NCBI RefSeq assembly: GCF_000309385.1 | Contig: NZ_JH976537.1 | Coordinates: 833,426-897,425 of the forward strand | DNA from: Nodosilinea nodulosa PCC 7104 | GTDB lineage: Bacteria > Cyanobacteriota > Cyanobacteriia > Phormidesmidales > Phormidesmidaceae | Reading direction: 5' to 3' | Length of the DNA: 64,000 nucleotides | Shown here: one piece after another, positions 11,488 through 15,727 of the stretch | How the letters are laid out: each line of letters opens with the position of its first letter | Numbering within the stretch: position 1 is the stretch's first letter | Position numbers and translations under genes: made by a program | Notes under the pieces: generated by a model | What the model was told of the DNA's origin: nothing | Database searches by the model: none | Seen by the model: only the letters and a program-made list of their open reading frames with translations

Positions 11488-12444
11488 ATGACCACGACCA
11501 AACTCAAGCCCGACTGGGCTGGCGATGATCTGCTCTCTCGGCTGGTCAACCGCGCCATTCAAACTCCGGTTCTCTACGCGCTGATGAAGCGTCAGGCTCG
11601 CCGGGTGCTGATTCAAACCGCCGAGAAAAATGGCGTGGCCTGGCGGCAAACCTGCGTCGATCTCGACACCCCTGCCCTGCGCCAGCGGTTGGATGAGCTC
11701 ACCAATCCAGCCGTGGTTTACCCCGACTACTATCAGGTGCCTTTCCACGCCTACAGCGAGGGCAACCTCTGCTGGCAGGCCGCCTTTGAGGCCGCCCCCG
11801 CCACCTACGCTATGGCCCTGCGCGTATGGCCCCAGGAGAATCTGTCCTGGCAAGAGGCCCAGGCCCGCCTGCGCCAGAGTTTTCTAAACGTGCTCGACCA
11901 GTACGGCCCCGCCCAGGTCCATGACATTCTCGATGTGGGCTGCTCGGTGGGCATCTCGACCATGGCTATCCATCGCCACTACGCCCAGAAAAACGCCCCA
12001 ACAAACCCGGTGCGCACCGTGGGCCTCGACCTGTCGCCCTACATGCTGGCGGTGGCTCAATTCCAGGATACCCAGCACGAAATTGCCCAGTGGGTGCATG
12101 GGGCAGCAGAATCTACCGGCTTCCCCGATGCGTCGTTTGATGTGGTGACAATGCAGTTTGTCACCCACGAACTGCCGCGCCAGGCCGGGCGGGCTATTTT
12201 TGCCGAGGCCCTGCGGCTGCTGCGCCCCGGCGGCGCCCTGGCCATAGTCGACAACAACCCCCAGTCGCCTGTAATTCAAGCGCTGCCGCCGGTGCTGTTT
12301 ACCCTGATGAAAAGCACCGAACCCTGGAGCGACGATTACTACACCTTTGATCTGGAAATGGCCCTGACTGAGGTGGGGTTTGAGCCGCCCGTGACGGTGC
12401 CCAGCGACCCCCGCCACCGCACCCTGGTGGCCCGCAAAGGATGA
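11488..12444 (+). CDS. class I SAM-dependent methyltransferase
   Basis: The protein has 318 residues. An alpha-helical N-terminal half of about 130 residues precedes the Rossmann methyltransferase core, with motif I ILDVGCSVGISTMA, then VGLDLSPYMLAVA, then FPDASFDVVTMQFVTHELP, and RPGGALAIVDNNP near motif IV. This layout is common in cyanobacterial and plastid proteins annotated only as methyltransferases. It is divergent from the methyltransferase at 11370, with about 117 bases between. The substrate is unassigned. Confidence 0.85.
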   Translation: MTTTKLKPDWAGDDLLSRLVNRAIQTPVLYALMKRQARRVLIQTAEKNGVAWRQTCVDLDTPALRQRLDELTNPAVVYPDYYQVPFHAYSEGNLCWQAAFEAAPATYAMALRVWPQENLSWQEAQARLRQSFLNVLDQYGPAQVHDILDVGCSVGISTMAIHRHYAQKNAPTNPVRTVGLDLSPYMLAVAQFQDTQHEIAQWVHGAAESTGFPDASFDVVTMQFVTHELPRQAGRAIFAEALRLLRPGGALAIVDNNPQSPVIQALPPVLFTLMKSTEPWSDDYYTFDLEMALTEVGFEPPVTVPSDPRHRTLVARKG

Positions 12445-13102: not shown

Positions 13103-15175
13103 ATGGGCCTCACGGTAGAACAGCCGCCCTCCCCGGCGCTGGTGGAAGGGTTTTATCGCAGCTGGCAGGGGTTGACCGATGCCCTGGGCGCCCTGCCTGG
13201 GGAGCAGCGCCGTCACTACGCCACGCTGCTGCTGGCCCGCCTGATTGCCGTGGCGGCGCTGCAGCAGCGGGGCTACCTGGGCGGCGATGAATGGTACCTG
13301 CACAACCAGTTTGGCCAGAGCCAGCAGCGCGGGCCGGATGGGTTCTTTGCCCAGGTGCTGCGACCCCTGTGCCAGCAGGGCTTTACTCTGCCTGTGGAGG
13401 AACGTACCCCGGCCCTGAACCAGCGGTTTGGAGCGCTGCCTTTTTTGCCCATGGGGCCGTTTCGGTTTGCGGAGTTAGACCAGCGCTGGGGCCATATTCC
13501 CCTGCCCGATGCGGCCTTTGAGCCAGCCCTGCACTGGCTGGCCGACCTGGCGGCGGCGGCCCCCGCCGGGCTGGATGCGGCCCTGGGGATACTGCTGGAG
13601 CAGGCCGTCAACGGCCAGGGTGGGGCCGCCGCCGCCACGCCCGAGCCGCTGCTGGGGGCGCTGGGCGATCGCACCATTCACGCTGTCCTGCTCGACCGGG
13701 CTGAGGTCGTCACCGGGCGCCGCTACAGCTCCACCGAGGGATTGCTGAGCGCACTCTCCCCCGGTGATGCTGGCCGTCTTTTAGGCGAGCTGGGCCAGCT
13801 CACCCTGCTTGACCCCGCCTGCGGCTCGGGGCGGCTTTTGGTGATGGCCCTCAATCAGCTGCTGGATTTGGCTCAGGGGCTGCGCGCGATCGCCCTTCAG
13901 CATTCGGCCCAAACTGTCCCCGACTGGGCCAGGGCGTCCTCCCCTGGGTCCACCCTGGGCCTCTACCACCACCTGGTGAGCAACGCCCTCTACGGCCTCG
14001 ACCTGTGGCCTCCGGCGGTAGAGCTGGTGCGACTGCGGCTGTGGCTCCAGGGAGTGCAGCACACCCATCGCCCGGCGGAACTCACCACCCTGCCCGACCT
14101 AACGCTGACCATCCTCCAGGGCAATGCCCTAGTCGGCCTGGTGCGGGTCGATGACGAGCGCTTCGACCAGGTGCAGCCCCGGCGCGGGGCAAAGACCAAA
14201 CCCCCCGAGACCGCAGCCCCGCTCCAGGGCAACCTGCTCCAGCCGCTGCTGGCCGACAGCTACCAGTCGGTGCTGGCCGAGCGCCAGGTGCGACTGGAGC
14301 ACTACCGCAGCCAGACCCAGCTGCTGGCCGAGGTGGGCAGCGTGCCCGCCTACGCCCAGGCTGACTTTTTGCGCGATCGCCTCGACGAACTCAACACCAT
14401 TGCCCACAGCAAGCTCACCCACCTGCTGTGGAGCGAGGGCAGCCAGCAGCTGGGCCTGCGGGTGCCCGATCCGGTCGGCACCCGCCCCACCCGCCCCCTC
14501 AGCCAGGCGGATGTCGAGGCCGTTCGCCCCTTTCACTGGGGGTTTTACTTTCACCAGCGCCTGCGCGACCAGGGCGGCTTTGATATTGTGCTCAGCCACT
14601 TTCCCCACGGTGCCGTAGAAGCTACCCGACAGGGGTTCATAGAGCGCTACGCCGCCCTTCTAGAGCACAAAAACGTGGCCCCCTCGACCTTTCTGCACAA
14701 CCACCAAACGGTGCTCACCATCGACCCCGACCTCGCCCAAACCTGGGCCGAGTACCGGGGCCAGTTTGCCTGGCTGAGTCAGTACCTGCGCCGCTCCGAT
14801 TACTACCCCCACAGCCGGGGCGGCAGCCAGAGCCGCCTCTACTGGTCACGCCTGTTTCTAGAGCGCAGCCTGCAACTGCTGCGACCCGGCGGCCGCTGCG
14901 GGGTATTGCTCGACCCCTTCTGGGCCCAGGGCAACAGCGCCGACCTGCGCCACTGGCTGCTGCGGGAGACCGATCTGGCGACCGTGCTCGATCTGTCGAA
15001 TCACCAGGGGCTGTGGCCGGGTGCGCCCGCTCGTACCACCCTCTGTGCCCTCTGGCTAAAACGCCCGGGACCAACCCAGGGCAGCCCCTACAGCGCCTAC
15101 GCCAGGCCCGCCAGCGCCCTCACCTCCCTAGCCCTGGAGGGGGTGCTGCAACGCCTCCTCCACGCGGCGAAATAG
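13103..15175 (+). CDS. Eco57I/type IIG-like DNA methylase homologue lacking the NPPY motif
   Basis: The 690-residue protein resembles Eco57I-type N6-adenine methyltransferases. SAM motif I is clear (LLDPACGSGRLL, about 235-246), then NALYGLDLWPPAVELVRLRLWL, GNALVG and the later RPGGRCGVLLDPFWAQG block. Where the family has catalytic (N/D)PPY after FD(I/V)V, this protein reads FDIVLSHFPHG, so residues 498-501 are S-H-F-P. The N-terminal 230 residues show no PD-(D/E)XK nuclease motif that I can see. It may be a SAM-binding but inactive relative. ATG 13103 follows TAGGGGCT. The 3' end overlaps coaE on the other strand by 48 bases. Confidence 0.75.
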   Translation: MGLTVEQPPSPALVEGFYRSWQGLTDALGALPGEQRRHYATLLLARLIAVAALQQRGYLGGDEWYLHNQFGQSQQRGPDGFFAQVLRPLCQQGFTLPVEERTPALNQRFGALPFLPMGPFRFAELDQRWGHIPLPDAAFEPALHWLADLAAAAPAGLDAALGILLEQAVNGQGGAAAATPEPLLGALGDRTIHAVLLDRAEVVTGRRYSSTEGLLSALSPGDAGRLLGELGQLTLLDPACGSGRLLVMALNQLLDLAQGLRAIALQHSAQTVPDWARASSPGSTLGLYHHLVSNALYGLDLWPPAVELVRLRLWLQGVQHTHRPAELTTLPDLTLTILQGNALVGLVRVDDERFDQVQPRRGAKTKPPETAAPLQGNLLQPLLADSYQSVLAERQVRLEHYRSQTQLLAEVGSVPAYAQADFLRDRLDELNTIAHSKLTHLLWSEGSQQLGLRVPDPVGTRPTRPLSQADVEAVRPFHWGFYFHQRLRDQGGFDIVLSHFPHGAVEATRQGFIERYAALLEHKNVAPSTFLHNHQTVLTIDPDLAQTWAEYRGQFAWLSQYLRRSDYYPHSRGGSQSRLYWSRLFLERSLQLLRPGGRCGVLLDPFWAQGNSADLRHWLLRETDLATVLDLSNHQGLWPGAPARTTLCALWLKRPGPTQGSPYSAYARPASALTSLALEGVLQRLLHAAK

Positions 15176-15727
15176 GGCGGGCAAGTCGGCGGAGTTGTCG
15201 ATTACCACATCGGCTCTGGCCACCTTTTCAGCCAGGGGCATCTGGCTCTGAATGCGGGCGTCGGCCTGGGCCGGGCTGAGGTGGTTGCGATCCATCAAGC
15301 GCTGGCGCTGGCGCTCTAGGGGGCAGGCCACCACCCAAGTTTCGATTACCTGATCGGTCAGGTTGGCCTCAAACAGCAGCGGAATGACCTGCACCACGAC
15401 TGGGGCTTCGGCCAGCTTGGCCATGGCGGCCTCAAAGCACTGACGCACCACGGGGTGAATCTGCTGCTCTAGCCAGGTCTTTTCGGCGGGCTGGTTAAAA
15501 ACAATGTCTCCCAGTCTGGCTCGGTCTAGCGTGCCATCGCCCCGGACGAGGGCTGCTCCGTAGCGGTCGGCGATCGCCCCCAGCACCACCGACCCCGGCT
15601 CCACCGCCTGACGAGCGTAGATGTCGGCGTCCAAAACAGGCAGCCGGTGCCGCCGCGCTAGGTAGTCTGCCACCGTCGATTTGCCGGTGGCGATGCCCCC
15701 GGTTAGCCCGATGATGCGCTGGCCCAT
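15128..15727 (-). CDS. coaE: dephospho-CoA kinase
   Basis: CoaE phosphorylates the 3'-hydroxyl of dephospho-CoA in the last step of coenzyme A synthesis in the cytosol. The 199 residues show the P-loop GLTGGIATGKST, the substrate segment VLDADIYARQAV, and VIPLLFEANL, all typical. The C-terminal RADVVIDNSADLP is also standard. The start overlaps the end of the cobA-hemD gene by 25 bases, so the two are translationally linked on the minus strand. Confidence 0.95.
   Translation of the reverse strand: MGQRIIGLTGGIATGKSTVADYLARRHRLPVLDADIYARQAVEPGSVVLGAIADRYGAALVRGDGTLDRARLGDIVFNQPAEKTWLEQQIHPVVRQCFEAAMAKLAEAPVVVQVIPLLFEANLTDQVIETWVVACPLERQRQRLMDRNHLSPAQADARIQSQMPLAEKVARADVVIDNSADLPALFRRVEEALQHPLQG

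Follow-up and report, generated by a model that had tools for sequence, protein, structure and literature searches.

CamA is an active enzyme, an orphan adenine methyltransferase, and METTL14 is a eukaryotic protein belonging to a different methyltransferase class. METTL14 is described in PMC6112310 as the pseudo-methyltransferase partner of METTL3. For BrxX, the authors of PMC11842806 place the methyltransferase domain at residues 211–650 and the target recognition domain (TRD) at 651–837, suggest that an insert at residues 390–500 contacts other BREX proteins, and report that Y511A, a substitution in motif IV, disrupted DNA binding. Here, we analysed a homologue of adenine methylases encoded in the cyanobacterium Nodosilinea nodulosa PCC 7104, within a 64,000-nucleotide stretch of contig NZ_JH976537.1 (hereafter, the window).

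The gene is a 690-aa open reading frame without internal stops (Table 1). The initial annotation took its product for a methylase homologue that keeps SAM motif I and the downstream RPGG region, and both points hold, as the match to the Eco57I Pfam model exceeds the gathering score (29.7 versus 25.3 bits), and LDPACGSG and LRPGG are both found. A sequence search of solved structures with the window protein returned nothing at E 1, so its relations are drawn here from profiles and folds. The Pfam YopE match (13.7 bits, cut-off 25) was dismissed as chance, and on inspection by eye not even the long relatives revealed an obvious nuclease motif.

Table 1. Coordinates of the gene, its motifs and its immediate neighbours in the window
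Feature	Position	Strand	Details
SRPBCC / polyketide-cyclase-like gene, 149 aa	12648..13097	+	Pfam PF03364, 63.6 bits
Putative pseudo-methyltransferase gene	13103..15175	+	Helical N-terminal domain and gamma-class methyltransferase core, without target recognition domain
Motif X, eroded	13625..13651	+	Residues 175–183, AAAATPEPL; GAYYTRPEI in long relatives
Motif I DPACGSG, SAM binding, kept	13811..13831	+	Residues 237–243 (LDPACGSG, 236–243)
Motif II YGLD	13991..14002	+	Residues 297–300; acidic residue retained
Motif III region GNALVG, kept	14120..14137	+	Residues 340–345
Helical insert between motifs III and IV	14225..14455	+	Residues 375–451; predicted long helical hairpin
Motif IV position	14597..14608	+	H499-F500-P501-H502 replaces N-P-P-W/Y
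RPGG downstream motif, kept	14882..14893	+	Residues 594–597 (LRPGG, 593–597)
coaE (dephospho-CoA kinase)	15128..15727	-	TIGR00152, 195 bits; convergent neighbour

A first search covered 57 relatives and a second one 388 genomes from the class, many of them draft assemblies. We found the gene in 58 of the 60 sampled genomes of the window's family (f1), spread over 14 genera; the window's own genus in this family contains Nodosilinea, for which the NCBI family is Nodosilineaceae. The SRPBCC gene is also missing from the two family genomes without the methylase homologue (the drafts G013 and G240), so assembly gaps may explain both absences. Frame-broken copies occur at two of the 57 family loci, both in draft assemblies (L026 in G024, where pieces of the gene lie on two contigs, and L075 in G384). 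The 328 genomes from beyond the family include 29 with a match at E 1e-20, of which 20 were read (all except G085, G138, G155, G166, G204, G289, G308, G349 and G377). Among the matches listed in a scan of named genomes (80 loci), L094 (Nodosilinea sp. FACHB-131) and L095 (Leptolyngbya sp. PCC 7375) were recognised as family members and L096–L101 as long relatives with NPPW. The long-type set used below (n = 26) joins L096–L101, of which L099 is cyanobacterial and the other five come from other phyla, to 20 loci of 19 cyanobacterial genomes from other families. Six loci (L027, L029, L030 and L051–L053) were replaced with longer stretches of the same genes, and L036 and L043–L045 were left out of the analysis.

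The window protein deviates from an intact enzyme at motif IV, where gamma-class N6-adenine methyltransferases have (N/D)PP(Y/F/W) and it has HFPH. The initial annotation had reported SHFP in place of NPPY; this string is present (residues 498–501, positions 14594–14605) and the loss of the motif is real, but the register was placed one residue early. Alignment with genus members and intact relatives sets FDIVLS-HFPH-G against FDAIIT-NPPW-E, which rejects the replacement of Asn by Ser and pairs the catalytic Asn with His499, the first Pro with Phe500 and the aromatic residue with His502, the second Pro (Pro501) being kept. Neither Asn nor Asp occurs within 15 residues after Val496, and hence no local residue compensates for the loss.

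Matches occur in 59 family genomes (the 58 above and G024), and 55 of them gave a readable motif IV, the exceptions being G022 and G024, in which the gene is split or broken, and the fragments in G208 and G387. The position of the catalytic Asn is occupied by His in 28 of these copies, Arg in 10, Ala in seven, Gln in five, and Leu, Ser, Val, Asp and Asn in one each. Asn is thus gone in 54 of the 55, the single exception being L037 (genome G031), whereas all 26 long-type relatives carry it within NPPW or NPPY (one falls in a gap in one alignment); this contrast is not due to chance. Losses at the neighbouring positions are less uniform, since the aromatic residue after PP survives, as Trp, in nine of the 55 copies and is gone in 46. 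The initial annotation had argued that a loss conserved across the cyanobacterial homologues would mark a new subfamily and that a majority with NPPY would mark a decayed copy. The loss is family-wide, and by that reasoning the proteins constitute a subfamily.

The residues associated with SAM have fared differently. The SAM-binding GxG of motif I is present in the window (DPACGSG), with D237, A239, C240 and G241 found in all 57 short forms and P238 in 56; the ribose Asp/Glu (D/E300) is likewise present in 57 of 57, and G340, L343 and G345 in 58 of 58 (the 57 family loci plus L035, a locus counted among the short forms of this alignment and excluded from the family copy counts). Motif X, GAYYT in its intact form, reads AAAAT in the window and is largely eroded across the 57 family loci, where the first Tyr is kept in six, the second in one and the Thr in 32, so some genera may have an unoccupied SAM pocket. 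From the retained motif I we infer that the window protein binds SAM, probably without methylating, which was one half of the earlier proposal.

Such retention could also be expected of an active methyltransferase that modifies protein, RNA or a small molecule, with His499 or the backbone replacing the Asn side chain. Besides the SAM-motif residues, this explanation draws on Pro501, kept in 55 of 55 family copies, on the pattern (I/L/V)SH(F/L/V)P found in 23 of 23 readable copies of the window's genus, with His in all 23, and on Gly503, present in nearly all family copies (50 of 55) at a position held by Glu/Asp in the long relatives. However, sister genera have R, A, Q, L, S, V or D instead of His, with at least 14 changes of residue identity at this position on the tree, and both the erosion of motif X and the scarcity of the aromatic residue speak against catalysis, which makes an enzyme with another substrate unlikely in our opinion. 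The same variability weakens the 'other chemistry' envisaged in the initial annotation, since no single residue has taken the place of Asn throughout the family.

A second deviation is the loss of the C-terminal TRD. The AlphaFold model of the window protein (16 sequences; mean pLDDT 78.7, pTM 0.85, with residues 349–383 under 50) matches the folds of the DNA methyltransferases CamA, BrxX, MmeI and M.TaqI. The best match, CamA, covers the core only (Z 24.6, 284 residues, rmsd 3.3), and E. coli BrxX residues 1–642 match along the whole length (Z 23.0, 452 residues, rmsd 4.3, 17% identity). A fold search against viral proteins at E 0.001 gave nine rows; eight bear the name of an adenine methyltransferase or of a restriction-modification domain, and the ninth has no name. 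In alignment, the window protein spans residues 160–839 of the 1,159-aa relative L084, and its reading frame ends at about residue 642 of BrxX, short of the BrxX TRD, which leaves a helical domain and a methyltransferase without a reader domain.

Frame lengths follow the same division. The long-type cyanobacterial frames run to 1,073–1,579 codons in 17 of 20 loci, with NPPW/NPPY and the C-terminal half, and the remaining three to 785–934 codons. Of these three, L086 is truncated by the end of its contig, and the other two, which read NPPW, belong to a single draft genome, G224 (L078, 934 codons; L079, 785 codons). Complete family frames measure 611–912 codons from stop to stop, excluding the two broken ones, and L040, L041 and L042 stop even earlier than the window protein. 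At the other end, the window protein is missing about 150 N-terminal residues that are present in its relatives; within the genus, this stretch is kept in L015, L016, L018, L019, L023 and L024 and lost in the window's lineage (L001–L014), the distance from the SRPBCC stop to the start codon staying at about 5 bp.

Judging from known enzymes, the absence of a reader domain, of the catalytic Asn and, in most copies, of the aromatic residue that would stack on the base makes DNA methylation very unlikely, and the Eco57I-type restriction methylase label that the Pfam match would confer is very probably wrong. The likeness of the fold to DNA methyltransferases could instead point to a pseudo-methyltransferase with non-specific affinity for DNA or RNA, which might act as a regulator or compete with restriction systems. 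We regard this as rather improbable: the TRD is absent, the substitution Y511A disrupted DNA binding by BrxX (PMC11842806) and the aromatic residue is mostly gone here, and the core is not basic, with a median pI of 6.0 in 54 short forms against 5.7 in 20 relatives, two groups that are not separated. DNA binding, the other half of the earlier proposal, is therefore doubtful, given the missing TRD that the initial annotation did not mention. Alternatively, the protein may be one subunit of a split DNA methyltransferase that receives the Asn and the TRD from another protein in the manner of METTL14 and METTL3, for which the existence of pseudo-methyltransferase partners of active enzymes (PMC6112310) is a precedent. 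Since no adenine methylase gene was seen beside the gene, and searches of its own genome with the window protein as the only query matched nothing other than the gene itself, we give this arrangement hardly any credence.

The gene descends from long-type methylases. In a quick tree of 80 rows (without the fragments L020, L026, L076 and L079), all 55 short forms make up one clade (SH-aLRT 99), which is nested among the long forms when the tree is rooted on L096–L101 without L099. The presence versus absence of Asn needs two changes, a count that rests on this quick tree. L035 and L037 lie at the base of the short-form clade, L035 on a long branch. The family copy L037 (positions 1–1475, genome G031) starts at a contig edge, retains NPPW and has no TRD, and the SRPBCC gene was not found in its draft genome. 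This one contig-edge draft copy may represent an intermediate in which truncation preceded the loss of the catalytic Asn. L035, from a genome (G049) of another cyanobacterial family, is a short form of 582 codons in which motif IV reads THSP; G049 has its SRPBCC gene on a different contig, accompanied by crtQ and with no such methylase-type gene behind it. L035 represents a second loss or else an ancient relic.

Despite these losses, the gene remains under purifying selection. Its dN/dS is 0.05–0.25 in 19 of 21 species pairs (two pairs gave no value), compared to 0.07–0.28 for coaE and 0–0.08 for the SRPBCC gene, than which it is less constrained; the pairs share species and are not independent, and dS exceeds 1 in four of the 19, so the picture is rough but consistent. 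Twelve positions are fixed in the family only (G57, L59, W64, P113, L125, L143, W275, Q380, P381, E399, P415 and S447), meaning, descriptively and without a significance test, at least 95% identity in the family and no residue above 70% in the relatives. Five of them sit in the helical insert at residues 375–451. A fold that lacks its catalytic residue and is conserved by selection is what defines a pseudoenzyme, although the inactivity of this one is predicted from its sequence.

These data also bear on decay. That the window gene is a single decayed copy is ruled out by the dN/dS values together with its presence in 58 of the 60 family genomes. A relic decaying family-wide, which persists by chance or because its deletion would disturb the neighbours, would fit the two frame-broken copies among 57, the loss of the N-terminal stretch in the window's lineage and the drift of the catalytic-site residue, yet its occurrence throughout 14 genera, the low dN/dS in 19 pairs and the residues newly fixed in the clade leave it very improbable.

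The genomic setting is equally stable. Among the 57 family loci, eight begin at a contig edge and are uninformative on the upstream neighbour; all 49 loci that reach far enough have an SRPBCC gene upstream on the same strand, with a possible start codon 3–47 bp from its stop in 46 of them. The window falls within this range, at 5 bp, and the exceptions are the frame-broken L026 and L075 and L055, whose readable frame opens 243 bp past the SRPBCC stop. On the other side, in the window, the 3′ ends of coaE and the putative pseudo-methyltransferase gene overlap tail to tail by 48 bp (15128–15175). The identified neighbours of the family loci are SRPBCC, crtQ, coaE and cobA-hemD, and the adjoining genes are not restriction genes, in agreement with the initial annotation, which had placed the gene among housekeeping genes. 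Just upstream of the SRPBCC gene, the window also contains a UbiE/MenG-like class I methyltransferase gene (11488–12444), for whose product the listed NCBIfam matches are all under cut-off.

The association with the methylase-type gene is specific to the family, whereas the SRPBCC gene itself, whose product is of a lipid-binding type, is found in 95 of 96 cyanobacterial genomes. From the 95 matching genomes 30 SRPBCC loci were taken, five of which proved to be family members and were dropped; in the remaining 25 from other families (among L176–L203), no methylase-type gene lies downstream (0 of 25), and crtQ, encoding zeta-carotene desaturase, lies upstream in 22. No SRPBCC gene accompanies the 20 long-type cyanobacterial loci, and long relatives occur also on plasmids of Anabaena and Synechocystis. 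Within the family, crtQ (TIGR02732, 907 bits in L042) precedes the SRPBCC gene in 15 of 49 loci and is missing in nine of the 22 with at least 1,400 bp before that gene; in the window's genus, none was seen over the window's initial 30 kb or in five 16-kb loci. Because crtQ is patchy in the family and unseen in the window's genus, a direct role in carotenoid metabolism is uncertain. Among the papers listed for open-licence PMC text, none was recognised as dealing with this protein, with a crtQ-linked methylase or with the SRPBCC gene, including slr0941, the SRPBCC gene of Synechocystis.

Taken together, we favour, with moderate confidence, the reading that a restriction/BREX-type methylase was truncated, inactivated and domesticated as a pseudo-methyltransferase, which purifying selection keeps for a regulatory or binding role; the protein probably now serves a new function other than methylation. 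A mobile PglX/Eco57I-like N6-adenine methylase would have entered the ancestor of the family, presumably once, directly behind the SRPBCC gene, at a site which in many genera follows the crtQ–SRPBCC pair. It lost the C-terminal TRD, the catalytic Asn and usually the aromatic residue, and the gene has been retained under purifying selection. Retention of the SAM-motif residues, together with the newly fixed positions, suggests a scaffold or regulator with a bound ligand. In such a protein the Rossmann core that binds SAM and the helical insert at residues 375–451 may now form a binding or regulatory surface, and SAM or SAH may be a structural or sensed ligand. The likeliest client would be the SRPBCC protein encoded alongside or the carotenoid/lipid step of that protein; the fixed neighbourhood makes the SRPBCC protein the first candidate partner, adjacency being no proof of physical partnership. 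More speculatively, and in our estimate improbably in this full form, a pseudo-methyltransferase domesticated from phage defence could sense SAM/SAH and control an SRPBCC protein coupled to carotenoid desaturation, thereby linking methyl status to pigment or membrane synthesis.

The family offers a replicated case of a defence enzyme that has shed its target reader and catalytic residue and is kept at one chromosomal place family-wide. It opens to testing the general question of why a methyltransferase fold should be kept once methylation is gone, and suggests a candidate partner for a near-universal cyanobacterial SRPBCC gene.

In comparison with known systems, the window protein shares with PglX/BrxX (PDB 8C45, 9EWZ) the helical N-terminal domain and the methyltransferase fold with motif I, and, with BrxX, a helical insert between motifs III and IV. 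Unlike PglX/BrxX, it is devoid of target recognition, the C-terminal domain and NPPY; none of the NCBIfam PglX models reaches its cut-off with this protein (37 bits versus 900), and no BREX genes are among the identified neighbours of the family loci. Its closest sequence relatives are the PADLOC Type IIG REase-MTase type (PDLC03628) and the long NPPW members (L031 and L084, and H1–H3 on plasmids). The PDLC03628 profile gives 387 and 519 bits for two copies of about 1,160 aa, 127 for the short form L063 and 51.6 for the window protein, and the long relatives of this type differ in having NPPW/NPPY and the C-terminal half, in lacking an SRPBCC neighbour and, in some cases, in residing on plasmids. 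CamA has been solved with its DNA target, and, unlike CamA, the window protein has neither a TRD nor the catalytic motif. A parallel in outcome is METTL14, in which EPPL stands in place of DPPW and the methyltransferase fold was likewise kept after loss of the catalytic motif (PMC6112310). METTL14 has a known active partner, whereas the cyanobacterial protein, for which no active partner is known, keeps the residues of its SAM motifs.
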